From assembly GCA_023954375.1 (NCBI GenBank), contig JAMLIC010000017.1, positions 1-64,000 on the forward strand: 64,000 nucleotides of DNA, in the 5' to 3' direction. The notes beneath the pieces are model-generated. The model had not been told where the DNA came from. It ran no database searches and was given only the letters and a program-made list of their open reading frames with translations. A program made the translations under genes and the position numbers. Origin of the DNA: Planctomycetota bacterium. GTDB taxonomy: Bacteria > Planctomycetota > J058. Numbering within the stretch: position 1 is the stretch's first letter; each line of letters begins with the position of its first letter. This document shows positions 10,581 to 54,116 of the stretch, piece by piece.

Positions 10581-10584
<4 letters not shown>
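8188..10584 (-). CDS. Glycoside hydrolase family 65 disaccharide phosphorylase
   Basis: 798 aa from GTG 10584, placed to overlap the upstream HAD gene by 4 bp (GTGA). The N-terminal super-beta-sandwich (LCTLGNGYFATRGA, typical of GH65) is followed by the (alpha/alpha)6 barrel with HGEAYRGHVFWDELFIFP and VVGPDEFHTRLPG, where Glu494 is the predicted general acid. The C-terminal beta domain contains QGGTTPEGIHLGAMSGTVDLVQRCY. GH65 enzymes phosphorolyse maltose, trehalose, kojibiose or nigerose to beta-glucose-1-phosphate plus glucose, or are hydrolases. The linked beta-PGM domain argues for a phosphorylase. Specificity cannot be read from the sequence. Confidence 0.92.
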
Positions 10585-12095
<1,511 letters not shown>

Positions 12096-12142
12096 GCACC
12101 TACGATGCCCGACGGATGGCCCTGGGCGCGCCGCCGCGCGGC

Positions 12143-12625
12143 TCAGTTGCCCCCGGGTGACGCCCGGCGTCGGCCCCGCCACGCCCGGTGGGCGAGCCGC
12201 ACGAGTCCCTGCAGGGCGGCGACGACGAACAGACCCGCGAGCCCGAGCAGCGCGTAGTTCGTCCAGTGGAGGCCCGGCTGGACGAGGCTCCGCTCGGGCC
12301 GCTCGGGGTCGTAGTGGACGACGATCGAGTCGCCCTCCCGGACCCGGTCGTCCGGCGCGCCGCCGGTCGAGCGGTAGCTCGAGCCGGTGAACTGGACGTC
12401 GAAGACCCGGTAGCGGTAGCGGAACACGCGTTGCGACGACGCCCGCTCGCCGTGGCTCTCCTCGGTGTAGTTGGCGGTCACCACCCCCTCGGCGGTCGGC
12501 CACGCCGCGCTGGAGACCGCGATCCGCGCCTGGTGCCCGCCCCAGGCCATGACGCCCAGGGCGGCGGCGAGGACGCCCAGCGTGATCCACAGGTCGTTGC
12601 TGCGAAACTCGGGGGCCTCCGCCAT
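12143..12625 (-). CDS. DUF3592 membrane protein
   Basis: 160 aa. One TM helix near the N-terminus (LWITLGVLAAALGVMAWGG), an extracytoplasmic beta domain with WPTAEGVVTANY and VREGDSIVVHYDPERPERSLV, and a second TM (TNYALLGLAGLFVVAALQGLV) before a basic tail. The WPxxxGxV and V-Y-P-xxP-xxS pattern is that of DUF3592. The role is unknown; members are small inner-membrane proteins. Start ATG 12625 is preceded by GGAGGT. Confidence 0.85.
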   Translation of the reverse strand: MAEAPEFRSNDLWITLGVLAAALGVMAWGGHQARIAVSSAAWPTAEGVVTANYTEESHGERASSQRVFRYRYRVFDVQFTGSSYRSTGGAPDDRVREGDSIVVHYDPERPERSLVQPGLHWTNYALLGLAGLFVVAALQGLVRLAHRAWRGRRRASPGGN

Positions 12626-12937: not shown

Positions 12938-13159
12938 ATGGACTGGCGCGACCGGATCAGCGCGGATCCCGAGGTGTGCCACGGCCGCCCCTGCATCCGC
13001 GGCACCCGGATCATGGTCTCGGTGATCCTCGACGGCCTCGCGGACGGCGCAGCCGTCTCCGACCTCGTCCGCAGCTATCCCGCGCTGGCGCCCGAGGACG
13101 TCCAGGCCGCGCTCCTCTACGCGGCCGAGCTCGCGCGCGGCGGCGTGCTCAGCGCTTGA
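12938..13159 (+). CDS. DUF433 antitoxin-like protein
   Basis: 73 aa. WRDRISADPEVCHGRPCIRGTRIMVSVILDGLADG is the DUF433 signature (short HTH-like fold, xGxPxIRGTR motif), the antitoxin half of many VapBC-like pairs. AELARGG near the end is typical of the dimer interface. An ideal GGAGG precedes the start. Its TGA overlaps the TTG start of the DUF5615 gene by three bases (TTGA), the usual antitoxin-toxin coupling. It would neutralise the toxin and may repress its own operon. It is the last gene before the 3' end of large RNA copy A. Confidence 0.9.
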   Translation: MDWRDRISADPEVCHGRPCIRGTRIMVSVILDGLADGAAVSDLVRSYPALAPEDVQAALLYAAELARGGVLSA

Positions 13160-13518
13160 GGCTGAAGCTCGACGAGAACCTCCCGCTCGAGGCGGCCGAG
13201 GCACTCCGGGTGCGCGGCCACGACGTCGATACGGTCGCGGACGAGGGGCTCACGGGGGCCAAGGATCCGGCCATCAGCGCCGCCTGCGCCCAGGAGGGGC
13301 GCGCCCTGATCACCCTCGACCTCGACTTCGCCAACATCGTGGCCTATCCGCCGGGCCGCTACCCGGGGCTGCTGGTGTTGCGTCCCGCCCGGCAGAGCGC
13401 GCGGGTCGTCATGCGGGTCATCGAGCAGGTCCTCGCGCCGCGGCTCGACGCTCCCGGGCTCGACCTCGCGGGGCGCCTCTGGATCGTCGACGACAGCCGC
13501 ATCCGCGAGCACGCCTGA
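13156..13518 (+). CDS. DUF5615 PIN-like toxin/nuclease
   Basis: 120 aa from TTG 13156, the only start that keeps the N-terminal LRLKLDENLPLEAAEALRVRGHDV intact. The Asp in KLDENLP, the DEGL, and the ITLDLDFANI acidic cluster are the conserved acidic positions of the DUF5615/Mut7-C PIN-like fold, which in VapC-type toxins cut RNA. Downstream partner of the DUF433 antitoxin. The target RNA is unknown. The large structured RNA encoded directly downstream on the other strand could be coincidence. Confidence 0.85.
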   Translation: MRLKLDENLPLEAAEALRVRGHDVDTVADEGLTGAKDPAISAACAQEGRALITLDLDFANIVAYPPGRYPGLLVLRPARQSARVVMRVIEQVLAPRLDAPGLDLAGRLWIVDDSRIREHA

Positions 13519-13678: not shown

Positions 13679-13719
13679 AAAAGGCGAGGGGCGGTGGCCC
13701 TCTCGAGCCACCGCCCCTC
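13679..13719 (-). terminator. Rho-independent terminator of large RNA copy A
   Basis: On the minus strand a 13-bp perfect hairpin (GAGGGGCGGTGGC and its complement, 7-nt loop) is followed by GCCTTTTCCC. It sits immediately after the CCTGACACAC motif conserved in both RNA copies and ends the homology between them. On the plus strand the same hairpin lies after the DUF5615 gene but lacks a T-run in that direction. Confidence 0.85.
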
Positions 13720-15143
13720 GTGTGTCAGGCCCGTTCCGAGCCCGGCTGCCGTTTCCCTCCCCGGAGTCCCGGGTCGGGAGGTCGCTGGCCGCGCGGCGTC
13801 GCCGCCGCGTGGCCGCCCTCTCCTGGGGTCGTCGGGTCTCCTGCGAAGCGCTCTGTGCGAGTCAGCCAGCACCCTCGTCGGACCTTCGGGTGCCCCGCGC
13901 GTGAACGCGGTCGTCCTGGCTCGCCGTCCCCCGAGTGTTGAGCTCGGGTTCACGCCTCCGTGGAGTCGATCCCCTCCAGAGTTCCTCACGTCCTCCCGGC
14001 CGTCCGACCCTCTCGGGCCGGAGCCGACTCCCACGAGGTCCTTGACCCCTCCGACGACATCACCCGGGCCAGCCCCGTCCGCGCGATCGCTCGCGCGTGC
14101 GGCGGGACGTCCACCCCGCCGCGGTTCCGCTCTCAGGCGCTCTCAGCCTCCCAGCGGTTTCCTGGCACGCCCGGGCTCCGCGGCCTTCTCTCATGCCGCA
14201 GCCGCCCCTGGGTCTCGCCCTTCAGAGCCTTGCTCCTCACCGAGGTCGGCGCCCCTCTCGGGGCCACCATGCTCCCTTGCAGTCCTCCGCCGGGCGTCAA
14301 ATCGCGGCCACCTCGCGCGGTCCTGTCACCCCGGGTTTCACCGACGCCCGCGCCTCACGACGCGTTTGCCTGGCTCCCCGCCGGGGCTAGGGGCGGCGTT
14401 TCGGCGGTCGCGCTCGCGCGCGCCCGCGTCCCCGCCGTCCTCGACCGCGCGCGCTCTGCCGCGCGCAAGGACGTCACCGACCTCGTCTGCTTCGAAGCCT
14501 TCATCCCTCCGTGAAGCCGTACCGACGCGCGGACGCGCCGGCCGTTGCTCTCCTGGGCTTCCGCCCCTCCAGAGCCTTGCTCCGCTCGAGCCTCGGGGCC
14601 TCGTCACCCGGCGGACCCTGCGACGCCCCCCTTCGGGAGCGCCCCTGTGCGTCCACCGCGGGCTAGCACCGCGACGACGAGGAGTGCGACCTCCTCGCCG
14701 TCAGGTGAGGGCGGGCGACCTCACGGCCCCCCGCGCCTCGTCGGCGCCCGATCCGCGGCGCGACCGCGGACCGGCACGTGCCGCCTCTCGACGGCACCCC
14801 TGCCTCCCTCGACCTTGGAGACCCGCGCCTCGCGCGGCGTCCTCACGGACGCCGCCCGTCGCCTGGCCTCGTGGCCCTCGGAGGTGTGAAGGACTCGAGC
14901 AGCGTCCCGCCTGCGTGAGGCGGGCGTGCTCTCCTGGGGTTTCCTGCCTCCTCGTCGACCTCGCCACCACGCGCCGCGAGCCGGCCCTGGCTCATGGATT
15001 CACCGGAGGGGTGAGCGCCTCGTCTCCGAGGGCCCGACCCTCCTACGGGCCGGTCACGCGACGCTGGCCGCGTGGTTGCCCACGCCGCCGTGGCGTCGCC
15101 GCCGTTTCGGCCGTCCGGGCGGGACTCGTCCCGCGCCTGACGG
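13683..15143 (-). ncRNA. Large structured non-coding RNA, copy A (about 1.46 kb)
   Basis: Read on the minus strand from about 15143 (7 nt after the -10) to the terminator near 13683. It matches copy B at 52667-54106 along its whole length, with blocks of 15-25 identical bases separated by diverged segments whose helices still pair. Examples: 14906-14912 pairs with 14918-14924 (CCCGCCT/AGGCGGG), where copy B has ACCCATCTC/GAGATGGGT; and GGGCGGAAGCCC, where copy B has GGGCGAAAGCCC (both GNRA loops). No reading frame is conserved between copies and indels are not in threes, so this is RNA, not protein. Recurrent motifs include CCCAGGAGAG and GCAAGGCTCTG(G/A)AGGG. Function unknown; I recognise no published family. 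Confidence 0.88.
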
Positions 15144-15149
15144 GGGCCA

Positions 15150-15178
15150 CATATACGCCTCGCCGCCGACGACCTCAA
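15150..15178 (-). promoter_or_regulatory. Promoter of large RNA copy A
   Basis: On the minus strand: TTGAGG (15178-15173), 17-bp spacer, TATATG (15155-15150). The sequence tcggcggcgaggcgTATAT across the spacer and -10 is identical to that of copy B, where the upstream flanks are otherwise unrelated. Confidence 0.75.
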
Positions 15179-49817: not shown

Positions 49818-50037
49818 ACTCGTTCGCAGACGGCCGAGCCGCCTCCGAGCACACATCGCCGCGCGCTTCGCAGCGAGAGCCCCAGGCGAGGCGGAGGAGG
49901 GCCCAGCGTGTCCGCGCGAAGGCGAGCGACGGCGGCCTCCTGGCCGCCGAGCTCGCCTGAGCGGCCGGGGGGGGCGCGCGAAGCGCGCCCCTCCTGCGAA
50001 CGGCAGCGCCCGCCATCCTCCGCCGCAGCCGCGATCA
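49818..50037 (-). repeat. 3'-end repeat element R2
   Basis: Read on the minus strand it starts at the TGA of the NERD-kinase gene (50037) with TGATCGCGGCTGCGGC. It continues like R1: a variable hairpin (GGGGCGCGC-TTC-GCGCGCCCC), the conserved GGCGGCC-AGGA-GGCCGCC hairpin (49931-49948 on plus), CTCCTCCGCCTCGCCTG, and GTGTGCTCGG at the end. The variable hairpin keeps its pairing with different bases. Confidence 0.75.
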
Positions 50038-51471
50038 CTCAGCCGAGGACGTCGCCTCCTGCCACGTCTCGCCGATGATCGCCAGGTCCTCCATGACCTC
50101 GTCGACCGACTGGTAGCGCGCCTTGGGGTCGCGGCGGGTCATGCGCTCGATGATCCCCACCGCGTCGTGCGGCGACTCCATGAAGTCCTCGCTCCCGGGC
50201 GTGCTCAGCTCCTTCAGGAGCAGGTCGCGGTCGAGCGGGGTCTCGGTCGTGGCCTTCAGCGCGGCCTCGATGTCGTCGTAGGGCGTCTGGCTGGTGATGA
50301 GCTGGTAGAAGACGATCCCGAGCGAGTAGATGTCCGATGCCGGGGTGGCCTTCGCCGGGTCCTGCCACACCTCGGGGGCGCAGTAGCGCGGGTCGAGGCG
50401 GTCCTCGAGGTCGCGCGGCGTCAGGCCGGGCGCGGCCTTCACCAGGGCCAGGTCGAAGTTCACCAGCTTGCAGATGCCGCCCGGCGCCACGACGACGTTC
50501 CAGGGGCGCAGGTCGCGGTGGATCACGCCGCGGCCGTGGGCGTGGCGCAGGCCGCGCGCCATCTTGGCCACGAGGTCGGCCTTCTCCTTCCAGGTGATCT
50601 GCCGGTCCTCCTCCTTCTGCAGGAGGAGCTCGAGCGGCCGGCCGCTCTCGATGTACTCGCTCGGCTGGACGAACTTCGTGTCGTCCCAGGCGAACATGTC
50701 CGACGTGTCGATCAGGTTCGGGTGGGCGCCGAGGTGCCGCATGGCCTCGGAGTCGTGGAAGATCGCCTCGATCTGCCGGCGCTTCTCCTCCTCCTTCTGG
50801 TAGGCGTCGAAGTGGAAGACCTTGAGGATGGTCTTCGGCCGGGTGCGGATGAAGCGGTGCTTCGCGAGGAAGACGGTGCGGGTCTCCGTCTGGTTGAGCT
50901 TCTCCAGGATCTCGTAGAGGCCGACCTGCTTCACCTTCTGGCTGGGCCGGTGGTTGAAGAGCACCTCGCAGATCATGTCGTGGAGGTGCGTGATCGGGTT
51001 GACCTGCACGGGGAGGTTGCGCGGGTTCGACAGGTAGTCGGCCGCCTCCGACAGGTGGATCACGCGCCCCGACTGGTCGTCCTTGAGCCGGACCTTGGCC
51101 TTGTCGTCGGTGAGGAGGATCACGGTGTCGACGAAGGCGTCCTCGAGCCGGCGCGAGTGGTCGCGCAGCTTGCTCGCGAGGATCTTCGACTTCTTGTTCG
51201 CCAGCGGGATCGGGCTCGGCATGACCCCGCCGTTCTCGAACACCCACTGGTTCTGGTCGCCGCGGATCGTGCCGCGGTAGCCCTTCACCTCGACGTGCCA
51301 CACGGCGAAGGGCGCGACGACGCAGATGTCGTACTCGTACGGCAGCCCGCGGCCGGTCGTCAGCTCGAAGTTGTGGAAGACGAAGTAGTCGTCGGGCAGC
51401 CGCTTGCCCAGCTCGACGACCGCCTTCGCCTCGTGCTGGTCGGGCTCACCGATCCTGTGGACGCGGGCCAT
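50035..51471 (-). CDS. NERD-domain Ser/Thr kinase (PglW-like architecture)
   Basis: 478 aa from ATG 51471. N-terminal NERD (nuclease-related) domain at about 10-125: HEAKAVVELGKRLPDDYFVFHNFEL, EYDICVVAPFAVWHVEVKGYRGTI (Glu-Val-Lys core). Then a kinase domain at about 200-470 with GVIHRDLRPWNVVV, LVNFDLALV (NFD in place of DFG) and DPRYCAPEVW. The NERD-kinase order is that of PglW from BREX/Pgl phage defence, but no other BREX genes (pglX, pglZ, brxC) are present, so a stand-alone signalling role is as likely. Ends inside repeat R2. Confidence 0.88.
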   Translation of the reverse strand: MARVHRIGEPDQHEAKAVVELGKRLPDDYFVFHNFELTTGRGLPYEYDICVVAPFAVWHVEVKGYRGTIRGDQNQWVFENGGVMPSPIPLANKKSKILASKLRDHSRRLEDAFVDTVILLTDDKAKVRLKDDQSGRVIHLSEAADYLSNPRNLPVQVNPITHLHDMICEVLFNHRPSQKVKQVGLYEILEKLNQTETRTVFLAKHRFIRTRPKTILKVFHFDAYQKEEEKRRQIEAIFHDSEAMRHLGAHPNLIDTSDMFAWDDTKFVQPSEYIESGRPLELLLQKEEDRQITWKEKADLVAKMARGLRHAHGRGVIHRDLRPWNVVVAPGGICKLVNFDLALVKAAPGLTPRDLEDRLDPRYCAPEVWQDPAKATPASDIYSLGIVFYQLITSQTPYDDIEAALKATTETPLDRDLLLKELSTPGSEDFMESPHDAVGIIERMTRRDPKARYQSVDEVMEDLAIIGETWQEATSSAE

Positions 51472-51496
51472 GGGCTCCCTCCCTGTGGGCGGGATT

Positions 51497-52231
51497 CTAG
51501 CCGCGGCGCCGCACCAGACCGCGCGCAAACAGCGGGGCCGCCGCCGGCGTGGGGGCCGGAGGGCGCGCCGCGGGCGGTCGGTCCGCCGCGGGGCGAGGCG
51601 GCGGCGGCGCCGGGGGTGCGGCGGGGAGCGACGAGGACGACGGGGCGGCCCAGGCGGCCGCGACGCGGTCGACCGTGGCGCGGATCGTCTGCCGGGCCGC
51701 GCGGCGGGCCTCCTTGCTCGCGCGGCCGAAGGGCCGCCCGGCGCCGGCGCGGTCGAGCAGGGCGTCGTACTCCGTGTGGGCGTGACGGATCCAGGCCCGC
51801 ACGGCCAGGCGGATCGGCTCGGGGTCGAGGGCCTTGGCGGCGGCGCAGCGGCCGACGCGCCGCGACCCGACCTCGCAGGCGCGGGCGACGATCGCCAGGC
51901 GGTCGCGCTCGGGGATCGAGGGGAAGAGGCGGCGCACCGCCTGGTCGAAGTCGGCCTGGTAGCGCGCCTCCAGGCGCTCGCGGCGCTCGCGCGACCGCTC
52001 GCGCGACGCCGCGCGCGCGTCGGCCGTCGCGGCGACCTCGGCGCGCGCCGCCGCGATGGCGTCGTCGCAGGCGAAGACGCCCACCTGCACCAGCTTGCCC
52101 TTGCGCTCGTCGAACACGCGCAGGGCGCCGCGCGCGAGCAGCGCGCGCGTGAGGGCGGGCTCGCCGCGGGCCACGAAGACGTGGCCGGGATGGTGTCGGA
52201 GGTCCTCGCGCCGGAGTCGTGGCTCGCTCAC
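51497..52231 (-). CDS. DUF2293 protein
   Basis: 244 aa from GTG 52231; longer in-frame extensions run through unrelated low-complexity sequence. Residues about 95-175 (DFDQAVRRLFPSIPERDRLAIVARACEVGSRRVGRC, then AVRAWIRHAHTEYDALL) match DUF2293, a predicted nucleic-acid-binding helical domain. The N-terminal part (VFVARGEPALTRALLARGALRVFDERKGKLVQVGVFACDDAI) is separate. The C-terminal 50 residues are Pro/Ala-rich. Partner unknown. Twenty-five bases upstream of the NERD-kinase start on the same strand, so likely an operon. Confidence 0.8.
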   Translation of the reverse strand: MSEPRLRREDLRHHPGHVFVARGEPALTRALLARGALRVFDERKGKLVQVGVFACDDAIAAARAEVAATADARAASRERSRERRERLEARYQADFDQAVRRLFPSIPERDRLAIVARACEVGSRRVGRCAAAKALDPEPIRLAVRAWIRHAHTEYDALLDRAGAGRPFGRASKEARRAARQTIRATVDRVAAAWAAPSSSSLPAAPPAPPPPRPAADRPPAARPPAPTPAAAPLFARGLVRRRG

Positions 52232-52631: not shown

Positions 52632-52660
52632 TTGCAGCGGTCGGCGGCGAGGCGTATATC
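52632..52660 (+). promoter_or_regulatory. Promoter of large RNA copy B
   Basis: TTGCAG (52632-52637), 17-bp spacer, TATATC (52655-52660). Spacer and -10 share the string tcggcggcgaggcgTATAT with copy A. Start of transcription is expected near 52667, where RNA homology between the copies begins (CGTCAGGCGCGGGACGAG). Confidence 0.75.
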
Positions 52661-52666
52661 TCTCCT

Positions 52667-54106
52667 TCGTCAGGCGCGGGACGAGTCCCGCACGGACGGC
52701 CGAAACGGCGGCGACGCGACGATGCCCGCGCGAGCGGGGTCAGCCATTCGCGACGCGCCCGAAGGGAGGCCGGGCCCTCGGAGACGAGGCGCTCATCCTC
52801 CCGGCGAAGCCGCCCCTTCACGGGGGCGGAGCAGCCAGGGCGCGGGCGGGGGGCGAGGGAGCGAGGCCGACGAGGAGGCAGGAAACCCCAGGAGAGCAAC
52901 CCATCTCCCCGAGATGGGTCGCTGGTCGAGTCCTTCACACCTCCGGGGGCCAGCGCCGCGAGGCGCCAAGGCCGGGGGAGGCAGGGCTGCCGCCGAGAGG
53001 CGGCACGGTCCGGCCCGCAGTCGCGCTGCGGGTCGGGGCGCCGACGAGGTCGACGTGGCCGCGAGGCCGCAGCGACCTCACCTGACGGCGAGGGGTCGCA
53101 CCACTCGCCGTCGCGGTGCTAGCCCGCGGCGGACATGCAGCGTCGGTCCTCGCGAGGGGGCCGGGGCAGGGTCCGCCGGGTCACGAAGGGTCCGAGGCTC
53201 GATCGGAGCAAGGCTCTGGAGGGGCGAAAGCCCAGGAGAGCAGCGGCGGCGGCGCAGCGGGAGACCGACGCGTCGTGCGCACGGCCTCGTGGGGGGAGAG
53301 AGCTTCGAAGCAGACGAAGCCGCCGGAACGGGTGAGTCCGGTGCGCGAGGCTCAAGGCGACGAGGAAGGCGCGGGTTCGCCCGCGTCCGAAACGGCGCCG
53401 GAGCTCCGGTGGGGATCCAGGCCACCGCGCGAGGGCGCGGGCGTCGGTGAAACCCGGAGGACGCGGCCTCGGGCATCGCACCCAGTCAGGGCGGTGGAGA
53501 ACTGCAAGGGAGCCGGCGACCCCGAGAGGGGCACGCGACCCCGGCGAGGAGCAAGGCTCTGAAGGGAGAACCCCAGGGGCGGCTGCGGCACGGAACAAGG
53601 CCGCGACGCCCGGGCTTGCCAGGAAACCGCTGAGAGGCTGAGAAAGCCTGGGAGCGGAACCGGCGGCGGGAGTGACGACCCGCCGCGCCGACGACGCCCG
53701 CGAGGGCGGCGCCGGCAAGGGGCTCGCCCGGGTCATGCCGTCGAAGGGGCGAAGAACCTCGTGGGAGCCGGCGCCGGCCGAGAGGCCGGCCCGCCGGTGG
53801 ACGTGACGACTCTGGAGGGGATCGACTCCACGGGAGAATGAACCCGATCTTCAACCGATCGGGGGACGGTGATCCGGGACGACCGCGTGAGAGCGCGGGC
53901 GCCTGAAGGTCGACGAGGGCGCTCGCCGGATCACACAGAACGCTCCGCAGGAGGCACGACGACCCCAGGAGAGGGCGGTCGCGCGGCGGCGACGCGCGCG
54001 CGACCAAGCGTCCACACGACGCAGGGCTCCGGGGAGGCGACGGAGACGGGCCGATCACGGGCCTGACACACGGGCGGGGGAGAGGCGAGAGCTTCTCCCC
54101 CGCCCT
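52667..54106 (+). ncRNA. Large structured non-coding RNA, copy B (about 1.44 kb)
   Basis: Same RNA as copy A but on the opposite strand about 37 kb away. Conserved blocks in order include ACGAGTCCCGC, GACGGCCGAAACGGCGGCGA, GAGGAGGCAGGAAACCCC, CGAGTCCTTCACACCTCC, GCGGTGCTAGCCCGCGG, GAGCAAGGCTCTGGAGGGGC, GGCTTCGAAGCAGACGA-type, GCGTCGGTGAAACCCGG, GCCAGGAAACCGCTG, TCTGGAGGGGATCGACTCCA, GACGACCCCAGGAGAGGGC and GGGCCTGACACAC. Hairpins between blocks differ in sequence but pair in both copies, for instance CCCGATC/GATCGGG here versus CCCGAG/CTCGGG in A. Neighbours differ from those of copy A, so the gene is an independent unit, perhaps mobile. Function unknown. Confidence 0.88.
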
Positions 54107-54116
54107 CATCGTTTCC
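54072..54116 (+). terminator. Terminator of large RNA copy B
   Basis: 12-bp perfect stem (GGGCGGGGGAGA with TCTCCCCCGCCC, 10-nt loop), directly after the conserved GGGCCTGACACAC, followed by TCATCGTTTCC. A different stem sequence from copy A at the same place, i.e. structure is kept while sequence is not. It lies between the RNA and the convergent kinase gene. Confidence 0.8.

Follow-up and report, generated by a model that had tools for sequence, protein, structure and literature searches.

A giant structured RNA with a recurrent GNA/ANG internal loop in Planctomycetota and Myxococcota

Very few giant structured RNAs are known from bacteria. Those closest to the RNA described here are GOLLD (RF01998), ROOL (RF03087) and OLE (RF01071). 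GOLLD and ROOL are large, ornate RNAs of very complex secondary structure, and their cage structures are attributed to inter-chain kissing loops and A-minor contacts (PMC12286853). OLE, a large structured RNA kept across many species, is about 600 nt long and belongs to Gram-positive extremophiles (PMC9723947). A further parallel is offered by the leaders of ribosomal RNA operons, which carry boxA; NusB-containing complexes thereby resist Rho in long untranslated RNA (PMC4807359).

The present RNA was found twice in the window, that is, the whole stretch of 64 kb of DNA that was analysed. It shares with GOLLD and ROOL its size and ornateness, but differs from them in having no detectable homology to either, in carrying a recurrent GNA/ANG loop on its arms, in showing no sign of kissing loops and in its absence from the phage, plasmid and IMG/VR searches made. 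At about 1,445 nt it is longer than the ROOL (659 nt) and OLE RNAs that have been studied, and, although kept across many species as OLE is, it occurs in Planctomycetota and Myxococcota. As in ribosomal leaders, roughly half of the homologues have a boxA-like GCTCTTTNACAA close to the 5' end of what is a long untranslated RNA; the RNA itself, however, is not ribosomal, and the clade of the window is without boxA. The RNA matched no family of Rfam 15: with cmscan, none of the GOLLD, ROOL and OLE models reached its gathering score in the window or in 19 homologue loci, these models gave no match to copy B up to E=10, and Rfam matches to copy B at E up to 10 were at chance level only. A divergent RNase P was discarded because the host's own RNase P lies elsewhere in the genome. 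In the papers searched, which took in neither bioRxiv nor most of the subscription journals, no description of the RNA or of its loop was seen. Judged by Rfam 15 and these papers, it is an undescribed giant RNA family.

The RNA gene and its fold

Copy B of the RNA occupies positions 52,668–54,115 of the forward strand, and its paralogue, copy A, which is 78.0% identical to it over aligned columns, lies at 13,683–15,144 on the reverse strand. Promoter-like hexamers of the same layout, read by eye from the sequence, precede both copies: TTGCAG and TATATC, separated by 17 nt, at 52,632–52,660 (forward strand) for copy B, and TTGAGG and TATATG, again 17 nt apart, at 15,150–15,178 (reverse strand) for copy A. 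In the consensus fold the ends of copy B are joined by P1, in which GUCAGGC (52,669–52,675, forward strand) pairs with GCCUGAC (54,061–54,067, forward strand). This P1 rests on the consensus fold; an automatic P1 search chose other stems for the two window copies and found convincing P1 stems in some homologues only. The hairpin of an intrinsic terminator, predicted both by the consensus fold and by a terminator scan, follows at 54,073–54,104 (forward strand), and copy A likewise has a predicted terminator with TTTT at 13,684–13,720 (reverse strand), recognised by sequence and terminator scan, whose stem is unlike that of copy B in sequence. With six loci left out beforehand because the same place had been fetched twice, 31 of 46 homologues had a strong terminator hairpin and T run (score at least 14) where one was expected, compared with 7 of 1460 background windows. 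The RNA has its own predicted promoter and terminator, is intergenic and holds no conserved reading frame, as expected of a free-standing non-coding RNA. Orthologues of both copies are present in a second species of the genus, with identities of 95.8% for A and 93.0% for B. As these values exceed the identity between A and B, both copies predate the split of the species, and both were kept.

The alignment of the window group comprised five sequences, namely B, A, both orthologues from the second species and the RNA from a different genus in the family. The structure of the window RNA rests on these five because an alignment of eight members from the wider order had diverged too far to give a good global fold (−170 kcal/mol, few pairs). 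The resulting consensus fold contains 449 pairs in 67 helices, with 107 pairs changed on both sides and 149 non-standard cells. In a held-out comparison, the minimum-energy fold of B alone was 88.0% paired in A, compared with 41–46% when the partners were slid by 1–3 columns, and 42 of 48 double changes kept the pair, as opposed to 7 of 19 (slid by +1) and at best 14 of 33 (slid by −3). A fold derived from four sequences and tested on the fifth, that of the other genus, behaved in the same way: 78.2% of it was paired (38–45% when slid), and 54 of 77 double changes kept the pair (16 of 54 when slid by +1, at best 23 of 52). Folding energies corresponded to z = −7.7 and −8.0 (20 dinucleotide shuffles each). 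A preliminary description of this DNA, made without database searches, had supposed a large structured RNA hosting recurrent internal motifs; the covarying fold, with its compensatory changes, bears this out. The structure and distribution of the RNA family are well supported.

Distribution and genomic neighbourhood

The best conserved core of the RNA (53,500–53,661 in copy B, forward strand) contains invariant purine runs and was used to build covariance model R1, which has 159 positions and is based on 11 sequences. Within the order, R1 matched 8 of the 10 genomes. Across Planctomycetota it matched 41 of 392 at E<=0.01, the weakest of which (E 0.001–0.008) may be chance. With the threshold set at E<=0.001, Myxococcota gave 47 matching genomes out of 377, and a control phylum gave one out of 398 (E 6.4e-4). 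Presence of the RNA is patchy, at about 10% of the genomes in each of the two phyla, with one to three copies per carrier genome. A pattern scan of genome contigs returned 23 stretches, 21 of which were confirmed by R1 (14 from Planctomycetota/Planctomycetaceae and 7 from Myxococcales/Deltaproteobacteria); the other two (L069 and L086) were not matched by the model and were set aside as chance occurrences. Searches of phages and plasmids yielded no credible match to the RNA, and exact-pattern scans of IMG/VR gave 0, 0 and 1 match, the single one (L104) covering only 27 nt of the model. On these grounds an origin from a phage or plasmid was dismissed.

Neighbouring genes vary by lineage and include a sigma-54 activator with GpsA/PlsY, MatE, BipA, kinases, DUF2293 and DUF5615. 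Neither a shared protein partner nor a shared neighbour gene was detected by all-against-all comparison of the flanking frames, in which mutually matching antisense frames across the RNA itself were ignored, or by Pfam analysis of 20 proteins; the flanking frames show only lineage-wise synteny and represent varied, mostly housekeeping genes. Within the window, a protein with NERD nuclease-related and protein kinase domains is encoded upstream of copy B (50,035–51,528, reverse strand) and adjoins a DUF2293 protein. A DUF5615 PIN-like protein, possibly a toxin-antitoxin component, is encoded just downstream of copy A (12,976–13,518, forward strand), and a frame with HAD hydrolase and trehalose-phosphatase domains lies at 10,581–12,590 (reverse strand).

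A recurrent purine internal loop

The preliminary description had listed two families of repeated motifs, one at three places in copy B and one at two, with counterparts in copy A. The motifs are present at these places, its coordinates being off by 1–2 bases, and recur at matching places in the inverted copy A. Exact copies of CCCAGGAGAG stand at 52,887, 53,231 and 53,964 (forward strand) in copy B and start at 14,938, 14,557 and 13,827 (reverse strand) in copy A, and these six are all that the 64-kb window contains. Likewise, the four exact copies of GCAAGGCTCTGRAGGG in the window, at 53,208 and 53,551 (forward strand) and starting at 14,580 and 14,233 (reverse strand), all fall inside the two RNAs, the expected count with up to two mismatches being 0.11. 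A third CUCUGGAGGGG strand, beyond the two such strands originally listed, was located at 53,810. Both families do recur, but they are two strands of a single internal loop rather than separate motifs: each CCCAGGAGAG pairs with a CUCUG(A/G)AGGG strand, so that three copies of a purine internal loop, 5'-GNA-3'/5'-ANG-3', are formed. The partner of the first CCCAGGAGAG, some 660 nt away, is the second GCUCUGAAGGG strand (53,556); the second CCCAGGAGAG and the first GCUCUGGAGGGG (53,213) together form a local hairpin; and the third pairs with the CUCUGGAGGGG at 53,810. The idea that CCCAGGAGAG follows a GNRA-like or short loop accordingly holds for 53,231 only, where the loop is GAAA, and not for 52,887 and 53,964, where the pairing is long-range.

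Eight loops were numbered in copy B, all on the forward strand and placed by the consensus fold, with the fit of the loop to the five aligned sequences counted for M1, M3, M4, M7 and M8. In M1, CCC-AGG-AGAGC (52,887–52,897, the first CCCAGGAGAG) faces GCUCU-GAA-GGG (53,556–53,566, the second GCAAGGCUCUGAAGGG), and the 3x3 loop fits in all five sequences. M2 is the hairpin GCUCU-GGA-G-GGGC-GAAA-GCCC-AGG-AGAGC (53,213–53,241), made of the first GCAAGGCUCUGGAGGG and the second CCCAGGAGAG and modelled as a 4x3 loop with one extra G. M3, seen also in the repeat count, joins CUCU-GGA-GGGG (53,810–53,820) to CCCC-AGG-AGAG (53,963–53,973, the third CCCAGGAGAG) and fits in 4/5 sequences. The loop was further recognised in M4, between CCCC-AGG-GGCGGC (53,571–53,583) and GCCGUC-GAA-GGGG (53,737–53,749), and in M7, between CUCC-ACG-GGAG (53,826–53,836) and CUCC-GCA-GGAG (53,943–53,953), both with a fit in 5/5 sequences, as well as in M8, between GCUUC-GAA-GCAG (53,302–53,313) and CUGC-AAG-GGAGC (53,502–53,513), with a fit in 4/5. 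Besides M2, two loops of copy B deviate from GNA/ANG. The hairpin M5 (53,627–53,657) has the variant loop GAG/GGG, replaced by AAG/GAA or AGG/GAA in some homologues, and M6, between CCUC-GUG-GGAGCC (53,757–53,769) and GGCUCC-GGG-GAGG (54,025–54,037), is a degenerate copy in which the alignment places AUG facing GGA in the RNA of the other genus. Kink-turns are asymmetric, a 3-nt bulge being followed by tandem sheared G-A pairs that adjoin the C stem; since the consensus loop is a symmetric 3x3 GNA/ANG, this reading of the motif was rejected.

At a GC content of 74.5% and such a length, one 10-mer seen three times in a single RNA copy lies within chance: among 1000 dinucleotide shuffles each, 126 for B and 98 for A reached it. 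The improbable features are the overall number of repeated 10-mers, which came to 31 in B and 28 in A against shuffle means of 11.0 and 10.4 and was reached by 0 of 1000 shuffles of either, taken together with conservation in homologues. The latter was assessed in seven groups, the window group (win) and f60, f18, myxo1, myxo2, mix and g7, which were aligned separately with MAFFT (2–6 sequences each) and folded with RNAalifold to give predicted structures. Each group alignment contained 7–11 loops of 3x3 (7 in the window group). Loops that kept GNA/ANG in 75% or more of a group's sequences numbered 7 in myxo1, 6 in f18 and in myxo2, 5 in f60, mix and win, and 2 in g7, whereas none was seen among the 36 3x3 loops of 30 column-shuffled alignments (five groups). 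The motifs are thus kept in homologous RNAs, including those of another phylum.

The position of the loop is also regular. Across the seven groups, 39 loops fitted in 60% of sequences; in 34 of them the helix on the CCC/GGG side is exactly 3 or 4 bp long, and 24 of the 39 lead from that helix into a multiloop, typically with GAA-containing linkers. In f18, mix and myxo1 the loop occurs on three or four consecutive arms of one junction. This fixed loop-junction geometry is the main reason for supposing a three-dimensional module, and the fixed distance suggests a repeated three-dimensional contact, as had been proposed from the repetition of the motifs. Of the 14 four-nt loops of the window group, 7 are GNRA tetraloops, compared with 15 of 179 in shuffles, and given this frequency, loop-receptor or A-minor contacts are a natural guess. 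A short loop that occurs 2–7 times per RNA at a fixed distance from a junction and can be recognised in sequence provides a simple handle, by which the three-dimensional order of giant RNAs becomes directly testable on an isolated module. Weak additional matches to the core model were also observed 150–450 nt from the main match in the same RNA (L058, L050, L057, L048, L049, L033, L051, L035 and L093), a sign that whole arms resemble one another.

Interpretation and upstream sites in the homologues

Judged from sequence comparison, the predicted features of the RNA are promoter-like hexamers, paired ends, an intrinsic terminator, about 450 comparatively supported pairs and the recurrent GNA/ANG loop. 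The explanation that we favour, and regard as probable, is an independently transcribed giant structured non-coding RNA that would serve as a stable scaffold, its arms being fixed in a compact particle by GNA/ANG modules. Each loop, lying 3–4 bp from a junction with GAA-rich linkers, would form one three-dimensional module that either introduces a bend or acts as the receptor of GNRA tetraloops or of A-rich linkers. Such modules may hold the arms together, and the scaffold may act alone or with proteins. On this view the RNA belongs to neither a phage nor an operon and would be retained on its own account.

An RNA-only homo-oligomeric cage of the kind formed by ROOL and GOLLD, with the repeated motifs as inter-chain contacts, seems unlikely. 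It would agree with the size and ornateness of the RNA and its many GNRA loops, which together with the A-rich linkers could give A-minor contacts like those of ROOL and GOLLD (PMC12286853). However, homology to GOLLD, ROOL or OLE was not found, the strands of the motif pair within the chain, and no conserved palindromic or covarying complementarity between 6-nt loop segments emerged from the seven group alignments in what was a crude search, A-minor contacts being invisible in sequence. Internal repeats, moreover, have no bearing on cages, because cage contacts join copies of one chain, and the likeness to ROOL and GOLLD cages drawn in the preliminary description was therefore not upheld. A large ribozyme or self-processing RNA, in which repeated modules build the catalytic fold, is a somewhat more doubtful proposition than a cage: no family was matched at a meaningful score (the Hammerhead_II hit, at E 1.8, is in antisense and falls well short of its gathering score), even though the invariant purine runs of the core, and a size and internal order on a par with those of large ribozymes, would suit catalysis. 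An intron is unlikely, since the RNA has a predicted terminator of its own and its sites are intergenic.

It is very improbable that the stretch encodes a protein. Long open frames do overlap the RNA, as they do everywhere in this GC-rich window, but 27 of the 34 insertions and deletions between A and B are not multiples of three, and the changes follow base pairs; the coding interpretation was rejected on this evidence. Next to no weight is given to the idea that the stretch is GC-rich DNA, repetitive or in decay, whose folding is accidental and whose motifs recur through composition. The high GC content and the ease with which shuffling yields a threefold 10-mer speak for it, but it is refuted by the held-out covariation, the control with shuffled alignments and conservation across two phyla.

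With the boxA consensus and up to three mismatches allowed, 24 of 46 homologues showed a boxA-like GCTCTTTNACAA in the sense direction, 150–900 nt ahead of the core; the corresponding counts were 5 of 46 in antisense and, for background windows, 22 of 424. Hits to the strict form CTCTTT[ACG][AC][AC] were obtained in 11 of 46 homologues and 1 of 424 background windows. Among the eight non-redundant loci of the window's own clade (L025–L028 and L030–L033) none had such a site, nor did winA or winB, and the relative L029 had one match. A boxA-like site placed close to the 5' end, as in many homologues, would probably let polymerase and Nus factors finish the long untranslated transcript without Rho termination. 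A wider proposal can be put forward only tentatively and is less likely than not to be correct in full: a ribosome-like modular RNA particle in two phyla, with arms set on a central junction through the GNA/ANG module and boxA antitermination in part of the family, which would act as an RNA machine, either scaffold or catalyst. Such a particle would be one of the largest structured non-coding RNAs outside ribosomal RNA. The boxA-like sites near the 5' end of the RNA were observed in groups f60, mix and myxo1 (e.g. L070, L080, L081 and L083).

Sites resembling DnaA boxes (TTNTCCACA, including exact TTATCCACA) were a separate observation. They were not seen at the copies in the window and are rare in Myxococcota, but are enriched upstream of the RNA in several groups of Planctomycetota (L045, L047, L049, L050, L056, L064, L067, L073, L074, L080, L087 and L089). 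Their mean was 0.67 per row over 55 rows, some of which represent the same place twice, compared with 0.13 per background window, and GTGGAGAA was present in 14 of 27 upstream windows, against 1.4 expected.
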